IMG/VR virus record: IMGVR_UViG_3300036806_000206
Span: 1-45,874 of that record
Length of the DNA: 45,874 nt
Source: a virus
Direction: 5' to 3' (one strand)
Below, piece by piece: positions 15,819 through 45,874 of this stretch; positions within the stretch are counted from its first letter, which is position 1; the number at the start of each line of letters is the position of its first letter. Both the position numbers and the translations under genes were made by a program. Under the pieces are notes generated by a model. The model was not told the DNA's origin. It did no database searches and saw only the letters and a program-made list of their open reading frames with translations.

Positions 15819-16094
15819 ATGGCGAGAGTCGACGACGGCAAGCTGCACTTCGGGGCGGAGTCCTACGTGCGCCAGATCGAGAAGCACCTCGAAGCCGAGG
15901 GCGCGAAGGACGTAGTGGCGATCGTCATCCTCGCGCGGCCGGTCGGTGACGGCGAATTCGTGGTGCTCGCGGCCGGACTGCACGAGGGGCGCTCCATCGA
16001 CGGGCCGACGCAGCGGAAGATCTACCGGGCGCTGCACAACGAGGCGGGGGTCATCCACGCGCCCGCGGCGCCGAAGCCGGGCGAGGTGATGTGA
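15819..16094 (+). CDS. Hypothetical late protein (91 aa)
   Basis: Encodes 91 aa from ATG 15819, with a GGAGGT site eight bases upstream. Two beta-alpha units (VVAIVILARPVGD, then EFVVLAAGLHEG) and a C-terminal helix. No family recognised. Coupled to the tail adaptor gene by GTGA. Possibly a head-tail joining protein. Confidence 0.78.
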   Translation: MARVDDGKLHFGAESYVRQIEKHLEAEGAKDVVAIVILARPVGDGEFVVLAAGLHEGRSIDGPTQRKIYRALHNEAGVIHAPAAPKPGEVM

Positions 16095-16723
16095 TGGCGA
16101 CCGACGAGGCGACGATCTGCAATCTGGCGCTGAACGGCATTGGCGTGACGGCATTCATCTCGGATCTTGCCGAGGACTCCAACGAGGCGAACATCTGCCG
16201 TCTCGTCTACCCGCAAGCTCGCGACGAGGAGCTGGAGGTCACGGCGCCGGGATGGGCCACCGCCCGCGTGCGGCCCGCGCCGATCGACGAGACGACGCTG
16301 GCGCTGGGCGAGGTGCCCGGCGGCTGGAAGTACGCCTACGCGCTCCCGGACGACGCCCTGCCGAACGGCCTGCGCAGCGTGTATCCGGGCATCCGTTCGC
16401 CGCGCGACGACCAGCAGATCCGGTTCGCCGTCGAGTGGGACAGCGCGACGCAGCAGGTCGTCGTGCTCACCGACCAGGAAGACCCGGAGTACGTCTACAC
16501 GGCAAGGATTACCGACCCGGCGCGCTTCCCGGCCACGTTCGCGCGGGCCATCGCGGAGCGGATGGCGAAGGACCTCATTCGCGGGCTGCGCAAGGACCTG
16601 CGGTTGCTCGAGGCGCAGCGGCGGATGAGCGGCGAGGCGAGCGGTACGGCAGCGGCGAGCGCCGGCAGGGCATCGAAGCCGGACCCGGAGCCGGAGAACT
16701 TCATCACGGCGGCGAGGCGGTAG
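16091..16723 (+). CDS. Tail adaptor protein (T7 gp11-like)
   Basis: Encodes 210 aa from GTG 16091 (or ATG 16094). It shows the recurring pattern of gp11-like tail tubular A proteins: TICNLALNGIGV near the N terminus, a YPQARDEELEV segment, GWATARV, then WKYAYALPDDALP, followed by strands and a C-terminal helix with AERMAKDLIRGL. In podoviruses this ring links the portal to the nozzle. The following nozzle gene agrees. Confidence 0.87.
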   Translation: MMATDEATICNLALNGIGVTAFISDLAEDSNEANICRLVYPQARDEELEVTAPGWATARVRPAPIDETTLALGEVPGGWKYAYALPDDALPNGLRSVYPGIRSPRDDQQIRFAVEWDSATQQVVVLTDQEDPEYVYTARITDPARFPATFARAIAERMAKDLIRGLRKDLRLLEAQRRMSGEASGTAAASAGRASKPDPEPENFITAARR

Positions 16724-16724
16724 G

Positions 16725-17048
16725 TCACCGAATGCAGACGCTGCTCCAGGTGGCGAGCACCACGGCGCAAGTAGGCGTGTCGACGGTCGCCGGGCAGCTA
16801 TTCCACGCGAGGAAGCGTCCGCCGTCGGCATCGCAAAAGCACCGTCGCTGCGTGAACGTCTGCCCCTGAGCGATGGCGTCGAACTGATCCTCGCGGGCAG
16901 CGTCGGGGCACGGGTCGCACGGGGGCCCGGCGTCCAGGTTGGTCTCGCATTCGGTGGTCGGGCGCGGAGTGGGCGGCGGTACCTGTGGCGGCTCCTGATG
17001 GCCGCAGGCGACGAGTAGCAAGAGAGCGAGCAGGACAGCGAGCCGCAT
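16725..17048 (-). CDS. Cys-rich lipoprotein in antisense orientation (moron candidate)
   Basis: Encodes 107 aa from ATG 17048, or 114 aa from ATG 17069. The N terminus MRLAVLLALLLLVACGHQ is a lipoprotein signal: one basic residue, a Leu/Val/Ala core, and the lipobox LVAC. The mature part is Pro-rich, then has Cys pairs (CDPC, CFC) suited to disulfides. It lies on the opposite strand and fills exactly the gap between two tail genes (16723 and 17068). No plus-strand frame competes there. An independent envelope protein made by the prophage, perhaps blocking superinfection, is the natural reading, but no homologue is recognised. Confidence 0.72.
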   Translation of the reverse strand: MRLAVLLALLLLVACGHQEPPQVPPPTPRPTTECETNLDAGPPCDPCPDAAREDQFDAIAQGQTFTQRRCFCDADGGRFLAWNSCPATVDTPTCAVVLATWSSVCIR

Positions 17049-17057
17049 CGTCGGAGG

Positions 17058-17088
17058 GTAATACCGCATGGGTCAGCCGGTACGGCAA
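17058..17088 (-). promoter_or_regulatory. Possible promoter for the antisense lipoprotein gene
   Basis: On the minus strand TTGCCG (17088-17083) is followed after 19 bases by TATTAC (17063-17058). The -10-like hexamer ends nine bases before the ATG at 17048, and no Shine-Dalgarno sequence is seen, so the transcript would be leaderless or nearly so. The spacing is longer than ideal. Confidence 0.25.
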
Positions 17089-19830
17089 CAGGCGTTCACG
17101 GGCGAGATTGCCCCGGAGCGCTATGGCCGCACGAAGGATCCGCGGTACGCGACCAGCCTCCGCACCTGCAAGAACTTCCTGCCCATCGAGGACGGCGCGC
17201 TCGTGAACCGGGCGGGCACCTACGACATGGGCGCGCTCGCCGCGGCGCAGGTCCGCTTCGAGCACTTCGTCTTCACCGACGCACAGGCGTTCGTCCTCGA
17301 ATTTACGAATCTCCAGGTCCGGGTCTGGACTCCGCTCGGGCTCGTGCTGAACGCGGGCGTCCCGGTTGCGGTGGCGACTCCCTACCTCGCCGCGGACCTG
17401 CCGTTCCTCAAGTTTCAGCAGAGCGGCGACGTCATCACCATCACACGCCGCGGGTACCAGCCGCGGGACCTGACCAGGATCTCGAACACGAACTGGACGA
17501 TTGCGCTGCACGGCTTCGTTCCACAGGCGTTCTTCGCCGGCTTCCCGTCGATCAACGTGACCGAGATCGCGATGACCTCGACGACGAAATGGGACCTGAC
17601 GCCGTTTGGTCCGCCGCCTGCCGGTTATGGCGTGGGCGACATCGTCATGTTTCAGCCGGGCGGCGCCGGCCCGTTCCATCTTTATCAATCGCTGGCCGGT
17701 TCCAACCGCACGCAGCCGGATGTGGGCGGCTGGACCGATGTCTCCTGGAATGCCGGCACGACGTACGACAAGGGCCAGTACGTCTGGAAGGACGGACAGC
17801 CGTACATCTCGCTTCGGGAGCAGAACCAGGGAATCGACCCGACCGACACGAGCATTATTTCGGCGGTCGATGCCGCGCTGGGGATCTACTGGTGGGCGCC
17901 CGCGTCCGACGCGACCAGACCGGCTCAGGAGTGGAAGTGGGCGGTGACGGTGCTCTACAAGGACGATCACGGCGTCACGCACGAGACGTTGCCTTCGGTC
18001 GTGTCAGTCGGCGGCGCCTTTACCTTTTCCGGCGCGAAGTCGGCGGTGTACTCCGACCGTCCCGCGACCATCCGCTGGACCGCGCCCGGTGCGCAGGCGT
18101 TCTCGTTCAAGTTGGTCGGCTACAACATCTACCGCGGGCGCGGGAACCTTTACGGATTCGTTGGCGGCGCGGATGCCAACGACACTGCATTCACCGATAC
18201 CGGGGCGGCTCCGGACTACGGTACGCAGCCACCGAAGGGAACCAATCCATTCGCCATCGCGGACGGCGCGGACTCGGCAAACACCTTCTCCTGGCCTGCC
18301 TGCGGAACGATTCACGCGCAGCGCGAGGTGTTCGCCGGAACGGACAAGAAGCCGTCTACCTTCTTCGGCTCGGCCGTCGGCGACTTCAGCCGCTTCGACG
18401 TCTACGACGAGCCGCAGGACGCGGACTCCTACGAATGGCGCGTCTCGTCTGCCCGGCTGGAGGATATTCGCAGCGTCCTGTCCTTCGGTCGGCTCCTGCT
18501 CTTCAGCGGGCAGGGCGTGTTCAGCGCGCACGGGGCGGACGGTGCGGACATCACGGCCAACTCGGTCGAGGTGCGCAAGCACGTCAAGAAGGGCGCGAGC
18601 TATCTCGATCCGCTGGAGGTGGCGAACGTCATCCTCTTCAACACATCGAAGGGGAACTACGTCCGGGATCTGGTCTACGACTTCGCCAGCAACTCGTACA
18701 CCGGGCAGGACCTGACCCGCATCGCCCGGCACCTCTTCCGCGGGCACACCATCGTCTCCTGGGCGCACCAGGAAGAGCCCTACAGCGTCGTGTGGATGGT
18801 CCGAGACGACGGGCTGCTAGTCTCCTGCACCTACGACCGGGACACGCAGACGCTGGCATGGGCGCAGCATCCGACCGCCGGAACCGTGGTCCAGGTGGAG
18901 ACCATCCCGAACGGCACCGAGGACGCCGTGCTGCTCGGCGTCATGCGCAACGGCGCGCCGCGAATGGAGCGGATGGCGAGCCGGGACCTTGCCCCGACGG
19001 ACAGCCGGGATCTGTGCTTCCTGGACGCGGCGATCACGTTCGACGGCCGGAACATCGGCGCTACGACGATGACCGTCTCCGGGGCGGGCTACGACGCGGA
19101 GGACGAGGTAACGATCAACGCGGGCGCGGCGGCGTTCGTCGACCCGACCGACATCGGCGACCAGATCATCATTCTCCCGGACGGCATCGCCGCCGTGCTC
19201 GACGAAGATGGCGTGGAGCTCGTTCCGGCAGTCCCGCCAACGCGCGCCACGATCACCCAGGTGAACAGCGCAACGCAGGCGCTCGCGAAGCTGGAGGCGC
19301 CGTTGCCGGCGGATTATCAGAACGCCGCGACGCTTCTCTGGGGCTGGGCGCGGGACGCGTTCCAGGGCTTCGACCATCTAGAGGGTCTGGACGTGACGGT
19401 GCTCGCGGACGGCGGCGTTCAGGGCCCGTTCACGGTCGCGGGCGGTATCATCGGGCCGCTCAATCCCCCGGCGCTCATCCTCGTCGGTGGGCTGCCCTAC
19501 GTCTCGGACGCGGAGCTGCTCGACGTGGCGGCGGATTCCGTGAAGTCGAACGTCAAGACGGTGGAGCAGGTCATCTTCGAGGTGCTGGCGACCCGCGGGC
19601 TTCTCGTCGGCGAGCAACTCGACGATCCGAAGCACCCGATGCGGGAAGCCAAGCTCCGGACGCTCGCTGACAACTTCGATCCGACAGCGCTCAAGACGCA
19701 GCAGGTCGAGGTGAAGATCTCGTCGAGTTGGAACACGAAGGGCGGGCGGGCAGCGATCCGGCAGAAGGACCCGCTCCCGCTCACCATCACCGCGGTGACC
19801 CGGATCATCGACGTCGGCGGACAGCCATGA
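17068..19830 (+). CDS. Tail nozzle / tail tubular protein (T7 gp12-like) with inserted carbohydrate-binding-like segment
   Basis: Encodes 920 aa. The start FTGEIAPERYGRTKDPRYA, then TCKNFLPIEDGALVNRAGT, is diagnostic of podovirus nozzle proteins. Near residues 225-275 lies WNAGTTYDKGQYVWKDG...ISL...YWWAPA, the pattern of CBM5/12-type (chitin-binding-like) modules, inserted in the nozzle. Further beta domains follow. Six copies would form the tail tube tip. A GGAGGG site precedes ATG 17068. Opposite it lie the 5' ends of the antisense lipoprotein frame. Confidence 0.9.
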   Translation: MGQPVRQQAFTGEIAPERYGRTKDPRYATSLRTCKNFLPIEDGALVNRAGTYDMGALAAAQVRFEHFVFTDAQAFVLEFTNLQVRVWTPLGLVLNAGVPVAVATPYLAADLPFLKFQQSGDVITITRRGYQPRDLTRISNTNWTIALHGFVPQAFFAGFPSINVTEIAMTSTTKWDLTPFGPPPAGYGVGDIVMFQPGGAGPFHLYQSLAGSNRTQPDVGGWTDVSWNAGTTYDKGQYVWKDGQPYISLREQNQGIDPTDTSIISAVDAALGIYWWAPASDATRPAQEWKWAVTVLYKDDHGVTHETLPSVVSVGGAFTFSGAKSAVYSDRPATIRWTAPGAQAFSFKLVGYNIYRGRGNLYGFVGGADANDTAFTDTGAAPDYGTQPPKGTNPFAIADGADSANTFSWPACGTIHAQREVFAGTDKKPSTFFGSAVGDFSRFDVYDEPQDADSYEWRVSSARLEDIRSVLSFGRLLLFSGQGVFSAHGADGADITANSVEVRKHVKKGASYLDPLEVANVILFNTSKGNYVRDLVYDFASNSYTGQDLTRIARHLFRGHTIVSWAHQEEPYSVVWMVRDDGLLVSCTYDRDTQTLAWAQHPTAGTVVQVETIPNGTEDAVLLGVMRNGAPRMERMASRDLAPTDSRDLCFLDAAITFDGRNIGATTMTVSGAGYDAEDEVTINAGAAAFVDPTDIGDQIIILPDGIAAVLDEDGVELVPAVPPTRATITQVNSATQALAKLEAPLPADYQNAATLLWGWARDAFQGFDHLEGLDVTVLADGGVQGPFTVAGGIIGPLNPPALILVGGLPYVSDAELLDVAADSVKSNVKTVEQVIFEVLATRGLLVGEQLDDPKHPMREAKLRTLADNFDPTALKTQQVEVKISSSWNTKGGRAAIRQKDPLPLTITAVTRIIDVGGQP

Positions 19831-26928: not shown

Positions 26929-26935
26929 CTACTTC
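26922..26935. repeat. 14-bp palindrome at a convergent gene junction
   Basis: GAAGTAGCTACTTC is a perfect palindrome that holds the TAG stop of the plus-strand gene (26926-26928) and the TAG stop of the minus-strand gene (26931-26929) back to back. Without a loop or T run it is not a terminator; both proteins end in Lys codons, which explains part of the symmetry. Confidence 0.6.
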
Positions 26936-27153
26936 TTGCGCTCGAAGTCGCGGCGCTCGTGGAAGGCCATCCAGTAGCAGAACGAGGCGGTAGCGATGCC
27001 GGCGGAGATGCTGGCGTGGCGGACTTCGCCTCTGAGCAGGAATGGAACTACGCCCGCAGCGCCGATGCCGAACGCCCACCCGCTGGCGTGAACGAACAAT
27101 CGCTGTACCGCGTACGCGGGCACGGCGACTAGCACAGCACGGAGACCGAACAT
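26929..27153 (-). CDS. Small integral membrane protein in antisense orientation (moron candidate)
   Basis: Encodes 74 aa from ATG 27153. Two hydrophobic segments are clear (about residues 3-17, and 24-40 with GWAFGIGAAGVVPFLL) and a third is likely (about 48-62, ISAGIATASFCYWMAF), with a basic C-terminal tail (ERRDFERKK). It fills exactly the gap between the ejection protein stop (26928) and the tailspike start (27152), on the opposite strand. No plus-strand frame is credible there. The function is unknown; as with the lipoprotein at 16725, an envelope change in lysogens is a reasonable guess. Confidence 0.6.
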   Translation of the reverse strand: MFGLRAVLVAVPAYAVQRLFVHASGWAFGIGAAGVVPFLLRGEVRHASISAGIATASFCYWMAFHERRDFERKK

Positions 27154-29656
27154 GCGCAACCGATTCGCGGCATTCGCTGCCGTGCTGGCCCTCTCTTGCC
27201 CGGCGCTGGCCACGTTGACCACGACGACCAACTCCGCCAGCTACGTCGGGAACGGCTCTACGACCGCGTTCACCGTGCCCTTCAAATTCCTGGTGAACGC
27301 GGACCTCGTGGTCACGGTGGCGGGAGTGACCAAGGCCCTCGGCTCCGACTACTCGGTCAAGGGAGCGGGCGCGGCCACGGGGACCGTCACGTTCACCGTG
27401 GCGCCTCTGGCCAGCGCGCCGGTGGTCATCACGCGGGCGGTACCGCTCACGCAGACGACGTCGCTGCGGCAGAGTCGCGCGTTCGATCCCGCCACGCTTG
27501 AGAACGGTCTCGACCGGCGCGCGATGGCCGAGCAGCAGATCGCCAACACGCACGCGGTCGACAAGACGACGCAGGCGACCAAGGACGCGGCGCAGGACGC
27601 GACCGACTCGTCGATTCAGGCGACCGATACGTCACAGAACGCCCAGATCGTCGGCATCACCAACTCGATCGCCGGGTTCAGCAGCGCGAGCCACGGGGTG
27701 ACCGACACCTCTTCCGTCCAGGCGCTGGGGTCGAGTACGCCACGGACCTTGACCGCGCGGTTCGCGGACGTCGTCAACGTCAAGGACCAGGGTGCCGCGG
27801 GCGACGGGGTAGCGAACGACACGACGGCCATCCAGAGCGCAGCCACGCTCGCGGCGGGGAAGACGCTTCTGTTCCAGAGCGGCACCTACAAGCTGACCGG
27901 GCACATCAACATCTCGTCCGGGACACGTGTCATCGCGCAGGGCACGGTAACGATGAACCAGACCACGGCCGGTGAATTGGTCTTCTACGGCTCGGCCGTC
28001 TCGAACATAGAGATCCGTGGCTTCACCATGACCGGCACCGCGAACGCGACGCAGCCGCTGGTGGGCACGGGGAACAACTGCGGCGCCATCTGCTTCGAGA
28101 CGTCCGGAGGCGGCATCGTCGTCGAGAAGAACGTCATCTCCGGATTCTGGAATGGGATCACGGGAACCAACTTGACCGGGTTCACGGTACGGGACAACGA
28201 GGTATCGCACTGGCGGCTCTACGCCGTGCTGGCCTCGCAATCGGCTGACTTCCACATCGATAACAACCGCCTGCACGACAACGACATGCCGACCGCCGCC
28301 GCATGGTCATCGGCGACGACATACTCGCCCGGGCAGACCGCGACCGCGAACGGCCTCCTGTGGATGAGCCTGCAGGGCTCGAACCTCAACAACGCGCCGC
28401 CGGGAGCGCCGCCGGGCAATTCATTCTGGCTGCAGATCGCCACGTACGGGGCGATGGCCTCGGGGAACCGTGGCACCGTCTCGCAATTCCGCAACACGAT
28501 CACGAATAACAAGATCCTCAACAATCCGGTGTGGGACGGGATCATGTCCCACGACTGTGACGGGCTGCTCATCGCGAACAACGACATCCGCGGAGTGCGT
28601 ATCGGTATCGACCTGTCATCGTCCGCGGCTGGCAAATACGACGAGAAGATCGTCATCACCGGCAACTACCTGGAATCGACGGTCACGGATGCATGGAGCG
28701 GCTTGGCGGCACGGACGGCTGGGATCATCCTCTTCGGGAACGACTCGACGATCAAGGCTCGGAACGCCAGCATCGTCGGCAACGTCACCAAGGGATTCAA
28801 CGGATTCAATGCGGGCAGCACTGCATCAGGCGCGGTCGCACTGTCGAATACGGAGGGCATTACCGTCACCGGGAACCAGTTCACCGGGGTATCGAACTTC
28901 GCGGGCAATGTCGGTGCCTGCATCATCGCCAACGGCCTCGCGAACGGGCTGGCCATCTCGGGGAACTCCTGCGATGGAGCGGCAGGGCTGGCGGGGGTGC
29001 GGATTCACGCGGCCACGGCCGATACCATCTCGGTCACCGGCAACGCCCTGCGCGACGCGGACGGTACCGGCATCGCGGTCAACGTGACGTCTTCCTCGAC
29101 GATCACGGCGCTGGCGGTCACGGGGAACACCTCCAACGCGACGACGCCATACGCGGTGTCGGGAACGATCACACGCGAAATGGTCGACTCCTTCGCGACG
29201 TCTTCGACCGCCAAGAAGAGCGCGACCTACATCACTGCGGCCGGCGGTACCGGATCCGACCTCGACATGGAAGTCGCTCCCTCCTCCGGTCTCACGAACA
29301 CCGATCTGGTGGTCATGGACCTGTCGTCCACCGCGAGCGCATCGGCATCGGTGACGGTGGAAGTCATCGGGCAGCAGTACGGTGGCAACGGGAATCCTCC
29401 CCTCGGCGGACTCGTCACCTGGACGATGACCGTTTACGGGGCGCGCAATGCCGCCGCCGCCGCCGCGTGGACTCCGACAACCGCGACCGACATGACGGTG
29501 TCCTCGACCACCTACGGGTCCATCACGGCCCCCAAGCTCATCATCAACACCGCGACCAATGTCGGGACCCTGCAATTCCAGCCACAGCAGGGATTCTGCA
29601 GCTACCGGATTCGCGCCCGCGCGCAGTCGTGGCGCGGTACCGCGCTCGCGAAGTAA
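27152..29656 (+). CDS. Tailspike with Sec-type signal peptide, T7-fibre N-domain and beta-helix
   Basis: Encodes 834 aa. Residues 1-20 (MRNRFAAFAAVLALSCPALA) form a standard signal peptide. Then comes the T7 tail-fibre anchor type: SASYVGNGSTTAFTVPFKFL, then a QTTSLRQSRAFDPATLENGLDR end, followed by a helical linker. From about residue 205 (FADVVNVKDQGAAGDGVANDTTAIQSA) it is a pectate-lyase-type beta-helix with many N-x-I/NNK turns. Around 383-431 a CBM5/12-like segment (AWSSATTYSPGQT, then FWLQI) is inserted. The C-terminal beta domain ends FCSYRIRARAQSW. It recognises and probably cuts surface polysaccharide. The leader is odd for a virion protein assembled in the cytoplasm. Confidence 0.9.
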   Translation: MRNRFAAFAAVLALSCPALATLTTTTNSASYVGNGSTTAFTVPFKFLVNADLVVTVAGVTKALGSDYSVKGAGAATGTVTFTVAPLASAPVVITRAVPLTQTTSLRQSRAFDPATLENGLDRRAMAEQQIANTHAVDKTTQATKDAAQDATDSSIQATDTSQNAQIVGITNSIAGFSSASHGVTDTSSVQALGSSTPRTLTARFADVVNVKDQGAAGDGVANDTTAIQSAATLAAGKTLLFQSGTYKLTGHINISSGTRVIAQGTVTMNQTTAGELVFYGSAVSNIEIRGFTMTGTANATQPLVGTGNNCGAICFETSGGGIVVEKNVISGFWNGITGTNLTGFTVRDNEVSHWRLYAVLASQSADFHIDNNRLHDNDMPTAAAWSSATTYSPGQTATANGLLWMSLQGSNLNNAPPGAPPGNSFWLQIATYGAMASGNRGTVSQFRNTITNNKILNNPVWDGIMSHDCDGLLIANNDIRGVRIGIDLSSSAAGKYDEKIVITGNYLESTVTDAWSGLAARTAGIILFGNDSTIKARNASIVGNVTKGFNGFNAGSTASGAVALSNTEGITVTGNQFTGVSNFAGNVGACIIANGLANGLAISGNSCDGAAGLAGVRIHAATADTISVTGNALRDADGTGIAVNVTSSSTITALAVTGNTSNATTPYAVSGTITREMVDSFATSSTAKKSATYITAAGGTGSDLDMEVAPSSGLTNTDLVVMDLSSTASASASVTVEVIGQQYGGNGNPPLGGLVTWTMTVYGARNAAAAAAWTPTTATDMTVSSTTYGSITAPKLIINTATNVGTLQFQPQQGFCSYRIRARAQSWRGTALAK

Positions 29657-29677: not shown

Positions 29678-30031
29678 ATGTCCGATACCTCTACGACCAG
29701 CACGACTCCCACCGAGCAGACGAACCCGCTGGACAGCGGCCACACCACGACGGAGTGGAAAGTCACCATCGTGGCGAGCGTCCTTTCGATCCTCGTCACC
29801 GTCGTCGGCGTGGCGTCCAACTTCCTCGATGTCGTGCAGCAGGCGGGCGTCACTGGGAAGTGGGTCTCCATCGCGACCACGATCGTCGGCGTGCTGGGAA
29901 CGGTCCTGACGGCCCTCGGCTATCAGGTGACGCGCAGCGCCGTGAAGAAGGCGGCAGTCACCGCGAGCACTGGCACGCCCACTGTCACGCCCGCCGTTGC
30001 AGCCGCGAACATCGGCACCGTCCGCTCGTGA
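29678..30031 (+). CDS. Holin-like membrane protein (117 aa)
   Basis: Encodes 117 aa. A Thr/Ser-rich polar N terminus (about 25 residues) is followed by two membrane helices (VTIVASVLSILVTVVGVASN and WVSIATTIVGVLGTVLTALG) and a basic, then Ala/Thr-rich tail. Position before an endolysin gene in a coupled cassette makes a holin likely. An AAGGAGA site precedes the ATG. The stop overlaps the next GTG. Confidence 0.78.
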   Translation: MSDTSTTSTTPTEQTNPLDSGHTTTEWKVTIVASVLSILVTVVGVASNFLDVVQQAGVTGKWVSIATTIVGVLGTVLTALGYQVTRSAVKKAAVTASTGTPTVTPAVAAANIGTVRS

Positions 30032-30369
30032 AGCCTCTCTGCCTCGCGCTGTGCGTCGCGCTCGCCGCTACGGGCGCGCGTGCCAGCGATCCCGTCTACG
30101 TGTCTCCTGACCCAGCCCCCGACGTGTATGGGCCGCTCGTGTGGCGGGCGGGCGGCGTCGACGTGCACGGCTTCTGGTTCACCGACAAGCAAACGCAGGC
30201 CGTGGACCTCCGCATCAAGTACCTCGAGGACAAGGCCGCGAAGGAATGCACCGACGCGACGAACGCCGAAACGAAGAAGGTCCTCGGCGCGGCTCCGACG
30301 CTGTGGATCGTTGGCGCGGGCGCGCTGGTCCTCGGGCTCGTCGGCGGGTTCTACCTGGGGAGAAAATGA
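30028..30369 (+). CDS. Exported protein with C-terminal membrane anchor, lysis cassette (113 aa)
   Basis: Encodes 113 aa from GTG 30028. N-terminal signal sequence (MKPLCLALCVALAATGARA), then about 70 residues outside, including a short coiled stretch (LRIKYLEDKAAKE), and a C-terminal membrane helix (LWIVGAGALVLGLVGGFYLG) ending in RK. It sits between the holin-like and endolysin genes. It may regulate lysis or act in place of a spanin, but its topology (signal first, anchor last) is the reverse of Rz. Confidence 0.7.
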   Translation: MKPLCLALCVALAATGARASDPVYVSPDPAPDVYGPLVWRAGGVDVHGFWFTDKQTQAVDLRIKYLEDKAAKECTDATNAETKKVLGAAPTLWIVGAGALVLGLVGGFYLGRK

Positions 30370-30806
30370 CCGACTTCAAGCTGTTCGCCGGGCTCCGCAA
30401 GGAGTTGGTCGAGATGGCCATCGCGCACCGTGCCGCGGTCGAGGCGCAGTTGCGCATTCCGCTCGTGTTCACCTCCGGGCGCCGCTCCCCGGAAGAGCAG
30501 ATGGCCCTCTACGTTCGCGGGCGGGCGATCGAGAACGGCGTGTGGGTGGTCACGGACCCGCACCTCGTCGTCACGAACGCGCTTCCGGACCACGACCCCC
30601 ACGTCGTCGGCGCGGCCTACGACTGCGCACCTGCACCTGGTCACCGCATCGATTGGCAACGAATCGACCTGTTCGAGAAGGTCGGACGCCTCGCGCCGGT
30701 TGGGCTCACATGGGGCGGCTCGTGGCCACGATTGCGAGATCTAGGTCATTTCGAGTTGAGCGGGTGGCGGCATCTACCGCCGCAGGATCCGATCCCGATG
30801 GCCTGA
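30366..30806 (+). CDS. Endolysin, M15-family peptidase (VanY/L-alanyl-D-glutamate type)
   Basis: Encodes 146 aa from ATG 30366 (ATGA). It shows the M15 zinc peptidase pattern: TSGRRSPEEQMALY (residues 36-49), DPHVVGAAYDCAP with zinc ligands H79 and D86, and DLGHFEL with ligand H128. Enzymes of this family cut peptide cross-links of peptidoglycan. There is no signal peptide, so holin-dependent release is expected. It is the last confident gene of the late operon. Confidence 0.93.
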   Translation: MTDFKLFAGLRKELVEMAIAHRAAVEAQLRIPLVFTSGRRSPEEQMALYVRGRAIENGVWVVTDPHLVVTNALPDHDPHVVGAAYDCAPAPGHRIDWQRIDLFEKVGRLAPVGLTWGGSWPRLRDLGHFELSGWRHLPPQDPIPMA

Positions 30807-31420: not shown

Positions 31421-32512
31421 CTAGGAATTGACCCGCTGAGAAACCTGCTCCACGTCGGCTCCACTCTCAAGCACGTGGATCATCGCGTCGGTGCTGTGCG
31501 GCGACAGGTGCATGTAGCGCAACGTCGTTGTCAGGCTCGCGTGCCCGGCCCACTTCTGGATCGTCGTCACCGGCACCGCGCGCATCGCGAGGTGCGAGCA
31601 GAATGTGTGACGCAGCTTGTGCAGGTTCCGGGACGGCGGCAGGCCCGCGCGCTTGCACGCCACCTCGAGCCAGGACTGCAGCGTCGATATGCCTACGGGA
31701 GTCCCGTCCATTTGCCATAGAAGCCGCTTACCGCGGAGATGGCGGGCCTCGTCCACCGCAAGAGCCAGACGAGCGGTAAGAGGCACACGGCGAGCTTTGC
31801 CGCTCTTGGGCGTTCCAACGGTGCCCATCCACTCGTTCCGCAGGACGCGCACTTCGCCACGCCCCACGTCAGCCTGTTCGAGGGCAACAAGTTCACCACG
31901 ACGTAGACCCGCGTCGCCGCCGAGCAACACCGCCGCTCGCACCATAGGTCCCGCTCGTCGAGCACCATCGATCAGCGCCTCCCATTCCTTGAAGTCGTAG
32001 AAATCCATTTCTGGGTTGTCCCACCGCGGCACTTCGATTTTGGGCGCCTTGACGATCTCCTCCCACGCTTCCGCCGTGCGCATCATCGTGGCGAGCACCG
32101 AGAGAACGCACGCCTTCGTCTTGAGCGACTTGCCGTCGAGGCGCAGCTTGAGCCGCTGGATCTGGAGCGGGCCGATCTCGGTCAGGCGCAGCGACCCCAG
32201 GATCGGGACGAGGTAGAGCCGCAGGATCGTTTCCTTCGCCGCGAGCGTAGACGGCTTGTTGCCGTTGGCCCGCGAGTAGTCGCGCATCCACCGCTTCCCG
32301 AATTCCTCGAGCCGGGGCGCCGGGACTTCCTCCCGCTGCGGCCCCTTGCGCGCGAGCTCGGACTCACGGGCCTTCGCCCAGCGCATGCGGGCGCTCGGGC
32401 TGGTCAGGGCCTCCGGGAAGTTCCGCCGCTCACGTACAGGCCCGGCCGGTCCTAGCGTCAGAATGTCGTAGCGCGCTCTTCCGTTCCGTGGCGTCTCGAT
32501 TCGCACGGTCAT
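31421..32512 (-). CDS. int: Tyrosine-family integrase
   Basis: Encodes 363 aa. An N-terminal arm/SAM-like region (residues about 65-150) is followed by the catalytic domain with all expected residues: R204 in AGLRRGE, Lys in TPKSGKARRVPL (about 236-239), H298 and R301 in LHKLRHT, H324 in WAGHAS, and Tyr333 in LRYMHLS. It inserts and excises the phage at attP/attB. The excisionase-like gene lies 12 bases upstream, and the candidate attP directly after the stop. Confidence 0.96.
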   Translation of the reverse strand: MTVRIETPRNGRARYDILTLGPAGPVRERRNFPEALTSPSARMRWAKARESELARKGPQREEVPAPRLEEFGKRWMRDYSRANGNKPSTLAAKETILRLYLVPILGSLRLTEIGPLQIQRLKLRLDGKSLKTKACVLSVLATMMRTAEAWEEIVKAPKIEVPRWDNPEMDFYDFKEWEALIDGARRAGPMVRAAVLLGGDAGLRRGELVALEQADVGRGEVRVLRNEWMGTVGTPKSGKARRVPLTARLALAVDEARHLRGKRLLWQMDGTPVGISTLQSWLEVACKRAGLPPSRNLHKLRHTFCSHLAMRAVPVTTIQKWAGHASLTTTLRYMHLSPHSTDAMIHVLESGADVEQVSQRVNS

Positions 32513-45370: not shown

Positions 45371-45874
45371 TGGCGCGTGAACTCTGGGCGAAAATTGCCG
45401 TTGAGATCATCCGAGACCCGAAGCTCGTTCCGCGCGAACCTTGGGAGCGTTGGCTCTGGCTCGGACTCATTTGTCTGACAAAAGAGATGACGGAGGAGGA
45501 CGGAATCCTCCGCGGCTACGACGCGCGCGCGCTCAACTCGGTGCTCGATCTCCAGGTGACGCCGGGCAGGGTTCGCGCCGCCCTTGAGGCGTTCGCGGCG
45601 GCGGGGATGGTAGTCCTCCGCCCCGACAACGCGATCGAGCTGATCCACTTCAAGAAGCGGCAATGGCTCCCGAAAGACTCACCTGAAGCGGTCCGGAAGC
45701 GGCAACAGGAATGGCGAGCCAAGCACAAGGGTAACGGGTCCGTAACGGGTAACGGCGCGGTAGTGAGTAACGGGGAAGTAACGGGAGAGTCTGCCCGTGA
45801 CATAACGGGTCCTCAATCCGTTACCCGTAACGGAGAGGAAGAGGAAGAGGAAGATACAGAGAAAGAAGAAGAAG
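45370..45874 (+). CDS. Replication initiator / replisome organiser, N-terminal part (continues at 1)
   Basis: Starts at ATG 45370 and runs off the right end; it continues at base 1 in the same frame to 651, about 342 aa in all. The first 115 residues match the N-terminal domain of phage replisome organisers: LWAKIAVEIIRDPKLVP, WERWLWLGLICLTKEMTEED, GILRGYDARALNSVL, FAAAGMVVLRPDNAIELIHF, and KRQQEWRAKH, a winged-helix origin binder. Iterons (GTAACGG) lie inside the gene just after this domain, and the acidic run follows. It would melt the origin and recruit the helicase machinery. Confidence 0.87.
   Translation, partial: MARELWAKIAVEIIRDPKLVPREPWERWLWLGLICLTKEMTEEDGILRGYDARALNSVLDLQVTPGRVRAALEAFAAAGMVVLRPDNAIELIHFKKRQWLPKDSPEAVRKRQQEWRAKHKGNGSVTGNGAVVSNGEVTGESARDITGPQSVTRNGEEEEEEDTEKEEE
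45731..45833. repeat. GTAACGG iteron cluster (candidate origin, left and overlapping half)
   Basis: Direct copies of GTAACGG begin at 45731, 45742, 45749, 45767, 45778 and 45827, with a variant (ATAACGG) at 45802 and an inverted copy at 45818; from 45749 on these equal the copies at 2-86. Gaps of 11 bases separate 45731/45742 and 45767/45778, about one helical turn. Eight copies in about 100 bases inside the initiator gene cannot be explained by its codons alone. Confidence 0.7.
45748..45874. repeat. Right copy of 127-bp terminal direct repeat
   Basis: Identical to 1-127; the end of a circular assembly. Features in it should be counted once. Confidence 0.93.

Follow-up and report, generated by a model that had tools for sequence, protein, structure and literature searches.

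A probable lipoprotein gene of an orphan family lies antisense between two tail genes of a temperate podovirus genome

Envelope lipoproteins encoded by phages can determine the range of other phages able to infect a lysogen, and homology searches miss the orphan ones. The T5 lipoprotein Llp is small and blocks FhuA, its Cor relatives likewise exclude further phage by receptor block, and the llp gene adjoins the gene of the tail receptor-binding protein pb5 (PMC9586334). The lom and bor genes are expressed from the lambda prophage in lysogeny, and in prophage BTP1 superinfection exclusion is mediated by an antisense RNA, STnc6030 (PMC7067206). Among 526 surveyed o-spanins the number of periplasmic Cys residues ranges from 0 to 4 (PMC6139136).

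The window analyzed here is the whole of IMG/VR virus record IMGVR_UViG_3300036806_000206 (45,874 bases), which is probably a complete genome because a 127-base direct repeat stands at its ends. A tyrosine integrase indicates that the phage is temperate and that lysogeny is likely, as the initial annotation had assumed. Judged by its proteins, the phage is best classed as an integrase-bearing, short-tailed podovirus of the epsilon15/phiV10/BPP-1 type. The capsid protein is ~29-34% identical to those of temperate podoviruses (epsilon15, phiV10, BPP-1, BcepC6B and the Pseudomonas Tr60_Ab31 type), and the protein of the downstream tail gene considered below (tail B) is ~27-35% identical to those of the same set. 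Single-protein scans with tail B, capsid and terminase found no close phage relatives. The features discussed are collected in Table 1.

Table 1. Features of the studied genome, with related loci (L numbers) in the last two rows
Feature	Position	Strand	Details
Direct terminal repeat	1-127 and 45748-45874		127 bases
Tail A, upstream tail gene	16094..16723	+	phrog_394, E 6.4e-26
Antisense lipoprotein ORF	16725..17069	-	114 aa from ATG 17069; 107 aa from ATG 17048
Tail B, downstream tail gene	17068..19830	+	phrog_376, E 4.1e-140
Second antisense ORF	26929-27153	-	74 aa from ATG; hydrophobic, membrane-like
Start of tail spike	27152-27214	+	~20 residues resembling a signal peptide
Lysis-cassette gene	30028-30369	+	GTG start overlaps stop of previous gene
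Endolysin	30366-30806		
Tyrosine integrase	31421..32386	-	PF00589, E 2.8e-20
YPYGL/YPYCL gene	L010 5651-5989, L012 2239-2574, L165, L167, L170, L178, L208	+	
YMGG-like lipoprotein gene	L137, L139, L141, L142, L145, L147, L148, L152, L154, L157	-	

Tail A and tail B are separated by 344 nt, and this gap is filled by an ORF on the minus strand. The stop codon of the ORF (16725-16727) begins 2 nt past the last base of tail A, its first ATG (17067-17069) and the ATG of tail B overlap in a CATG palindrome, and the Shine-Dalgarno sequence of tail B (GGAGG) lies inside it. The description of a minus-strand gene fitted exactly between two tail genes was thus borne out to within 1-2 bases at each end. 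The initial annotation had also called the late operon unbroken on the plus strand save here and at 26929; among the plus-strand late genes (~5.9 to 30.8 kb), these are indeed the two largest gaps, the second being 223 nt (26929-27151), while a gap of 164 nt is due solely to start-codon choice and the others measure at most 92 nt.

Just upstream of the first ATG of the antisense ORF lies an in-frame TGA (17073-17075), which leaves 17069 and 17048 as the sole ATG starts from which the signal peptide would be retained. Translation from 17048 gives MRLAVLLALLLLVAC, a classic lipoprotein signal in which a positive n-region and a hydrophobic h-region precede a lipobox with the lipid Cys at residue 15, and which passes a strict lipobox pattern. 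A Pro-rich linker follows, then a mature domain with 8 further Cys, so that the lipoprotein signal and Cys-rich mature part claimed at the outset are both present. Cys accounts for 9 of the 107 residues; the next highest content in any protein of the phage is 4.7%.

The junction between tail A and tail B was compared across related loci. The two genes overlap or abut in six annotated phages, and they lie at most 60 nt apart in 183 of the 199 loci in which both were located; a distance above 150 bases was seen in the studied genome and in 13 other loci. The genes found in those 13 gaps are on the plus strand, most of them belonging to a family of small genes marked by the motif YPYGL or YPYCL, which occupies this junction in seven viral loci. 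Gaps at L062, L066, L069 and L082 were discarded, as the matches there began inside the tail B protein. Different inserts do occur at the same junction in relatives, all on the plus strand where genes were found; none of the other loci compared (199 with both genes) has a minus-strand ORF that fills the gap. The junction tolerates inserts, and among the loci seen the antisense lipoprotein is unique to the studied genome. Since tail A and tail B are contiguous in almost every relative, the antisense gene is, on this comparison, best explained as a lineage-specific insertion. An extra gene between genes that are adjacent in relatives is one mark of a moron, and the 344-nt gap against the 60-nt bound of most loci shows it.

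Searches for homologues of the antisense lipoprotein returned none from IMG/VR viral contigs, phages, plasmids or the PDB, in keeping with the initial annotation, which had not recognized the family. A Pfam-A scan (E up to 1) gave 0 families, and matches in NCBIfam were to the signal peptide only and far below cut-off. With tblastn against 50,697 phage records (E up to 10), the only matches were four from Vibrio phages (E 2, in a major head gene), and no similarity to known exclusion proteins, including Llp/Cor, was detected. A search of the mature part against 984 bacterial genomes, drawn from the groups to which three prophage hosts belong, gave no homologue; with no positive control available, this empty result proves little. 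A weak match from Caldimonas was rejected, as it covered the signal peptide and an Ala/Pro-rich tail without the Cys domain. The AlphaFold model, computed without an alignment, was too poor to support a fold comparison (mean pLDDT 59, pTM 0.33). By these sequence searches the protein forms an orphan family.

Signals for expression were sought on both strands of positions 16400-17600 by a weak scan, one not fitted to a particular host, and this gave neither a sigma70-like promoter nor a terminator-like hairpin; a promoter and terminator of its own, which would be a second mark of a moron, were therefore not seen for the ORF in this interval. No Shine-Dalgarno sequence precedes ATG 17069 or ATG 17048. 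Transcription in the lysogen, which the initial annotation had thought probable, thus gains no support from these signals; we infer it from the orientation of the gene together with the integrase.

Whether the ORF is a gene at all was assessed with three controls of the strict lipobox test, namely 40 simulated genomes (~15,000 ORFs), 20,000 simulated gaps and 211 related loci (11,655 ORFs). The pattern was passed by none of the ~15,000 simulated ORFs, and no simulated gap held an ORF that carried it. Among the 11,655 real ORFs it was passed 12 times, always by one genuine lipoprotein family (YMGG-like Gly-zipper, Mesorhizobium prophages). The signal is therefore strong evidence for a gene. ORF length alone is weak evidence, since chance alone yields an ORF of at least 100 aa in 5.8% of 345-nt random sequences of the same composition. 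Codon usage is ambiguous and fits either a foreign gene or no gene, the synonymous codon preference (0.043) ranking below that of ~98% of the phage's own genes but above that of 79% of spurious ORFs. Length and codon usage would both be compatible with a non-coding insertion that reads as a lipoprotein by chance, and elsewhere in the 45,874-base genome the start of the tail spike, and nothing else, passes the strict pattern, so sequences of this kind are possible in this phage's own DNA. That account has to contend with the empty 20,000 simulated gaps and with the lack of any unexplained match among the real ORFs, and we consider it improbable; the ORF is very probably a real lipoprotein gene. 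A real gene could still be a host-derived or degenerate one, carried as an unexpressed passenger without present function, as its marginal codon preference, the missing Shine-Dalgarno sequence and promoter, and its occurrence in one genome only would allow. The frame is intact, however, and fits the gap within 1-2 bases at each end, and useless DNA tends to be lost from phages; a passenger is a less likely outcome, though one to be taken seriously.

Two further accounts give the locus a different role. An Rz1-like o-spanin for lysis, displaced to the opposite strand, would explain the Pro-rich linker after the lipid Cys, and the signal and linker do match Rz-like spanins in PHROG, although weakly and over those two parts only (phrog_812 at E 0.019, a second at E 0.034); the genome has no other small lipoprotein ORF. 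An o-spanin gene is expected next to or within an i-spanin gene in the lysis cassette, and its product is expected to have few periplasmic Cys, whereas this ORF lies on the strand opposite the late operon, ~13 kb away from the endolysin, and encodes 8 Cys in addition to the lipid Cys, twice the maximum of 4 in the survey. The lysis cassette, moreover, has a gene of its own (30028-30369) whose product begins with a signal peptide and has a transmembrane segment at its C terminus, and a spanin at the antisense locus is accordingly unlikely, about as improbable as a chance frame. That gene is flanked by a membrane-protein gene and the endolysin gene, and its product, which lacks a canonical lipobox, is possibly a unimolecular-spanin-like protein. 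The function might instead reside in the minus-strand transcript, as an antisense RNA damping leaky tail-gene expression in the lysogen: the ORF is convergent with tail A with no terminator-like site between them, and STnc6030 sets a precedent. Such an RNA would leave the lipobox and the Cys-rich frame unexplained, and we regard it as very improbable, the least credible of the accounts weighed here.

The best reading of the locus is a moron-like envelope lipoprotein gene, phage cargo lipoproteins being a kind already known. That it is envelope cargo expressed in the lysogen we propose tentatively, with somewhat less than even confidence. A cargo gene would have been inserted between tail A and tail B, and its product would be a small lipoprotein, probably disulfide-rich, that is exported to the host envelope and anchored there, probably in the outer membrane. 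To go by orientation, late mRNA would run antisense through the ORF, and the lipoprotein could not be made from it; lying antisense to the late operon, the gene needs a minus-strand promoter of its own, which would be placed within the start of tail B. Expression would then occur mainly in the prophage state and would be opposed by late transcription on induction. The mature domain may alter the surface of the host. Most plausibly it would block the receptor of this phage or of competing phages, by analogy with T5 Llp and FhuA, or it may confer another envelope trait on the lysogen, by analogy with lambda Bor. Superinfection exclusion, taken by itself and on this analogy, is plausible, yet we would put it on the unlikely side.

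The second antisense ORF occupies the 223-nt gap that precedes the tail spike, and its start lies on a CATG common to the next gene. An ATG ORF of this length is expected in such a gap ~1.6% of the time, and no family match was found in Pfam or PHROG. A candidate relative at L220 was rejected as chance, since the match spans 20 residues in a different frame, among terminase and portal genes. The residues resembling a signal peptide at the start of the tail spike read MRNRFAAFAAVLALSCPALA, and matches to tail-spike profiles start no earlier than residue 21-24. A more far-reaching version of the cargo proposal would combine the two antisense ORFs into a two-gene surface-conversion set in the tail module, with the lipoprotein founding a new, disulfide-rich exclusion family whose gene lies antisense over the ribosome-binding site of tail B, and with late transcription switching exclusion off on induction. 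We offer this as speculation and consider it improbable. As a practical matter, screening the antisense gaps of structural operons with the strict lipobox test is an inexpensive means of finding such genes; in 211 loci it returned one other family, a genuine one.

Compared with the described systems, the antisense gene resembles lambda bor in that both encode small lipoproteins and are cargo of temperate phages, but the Pfam scan gave no sequence match to Bor, and the product is Cys-rich and encoded inside the tail module. T5 Llp and T1-type Cor are likewise small phage lipoproteins; they differ from the antisense product in having no detectable similarity to it, the antisense ORF is on the opposite strand, and it adjoins structural tail-tube genes, whereas the Llp gene adjoins a receptor-binding gene. 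Rz1-type o-spanins share the lipoprotein nature and the Pro-rich linker after the lipid Cys, but strand, location and Cys count differ, and no profile match is significant. Mesorhizobium prophages that have a related tail B carry, upstream of plus-strand head genes, a minus-strand gene for a YMGG-like Gly-zipper lipoprotein (PF13441), with a TNT-domain gene (PF14021) immediately upstream at L152. Both this gene and the one studied here are minus-strand lipoprotein genes, although the protein families are unrelated and the Mesorhizobium site differs, being near head genes. The presence of an antisense gene for an unrelated lipoprotein in these prophages suggests that cargo of this kind is a recurrent feature of the broad phage group.
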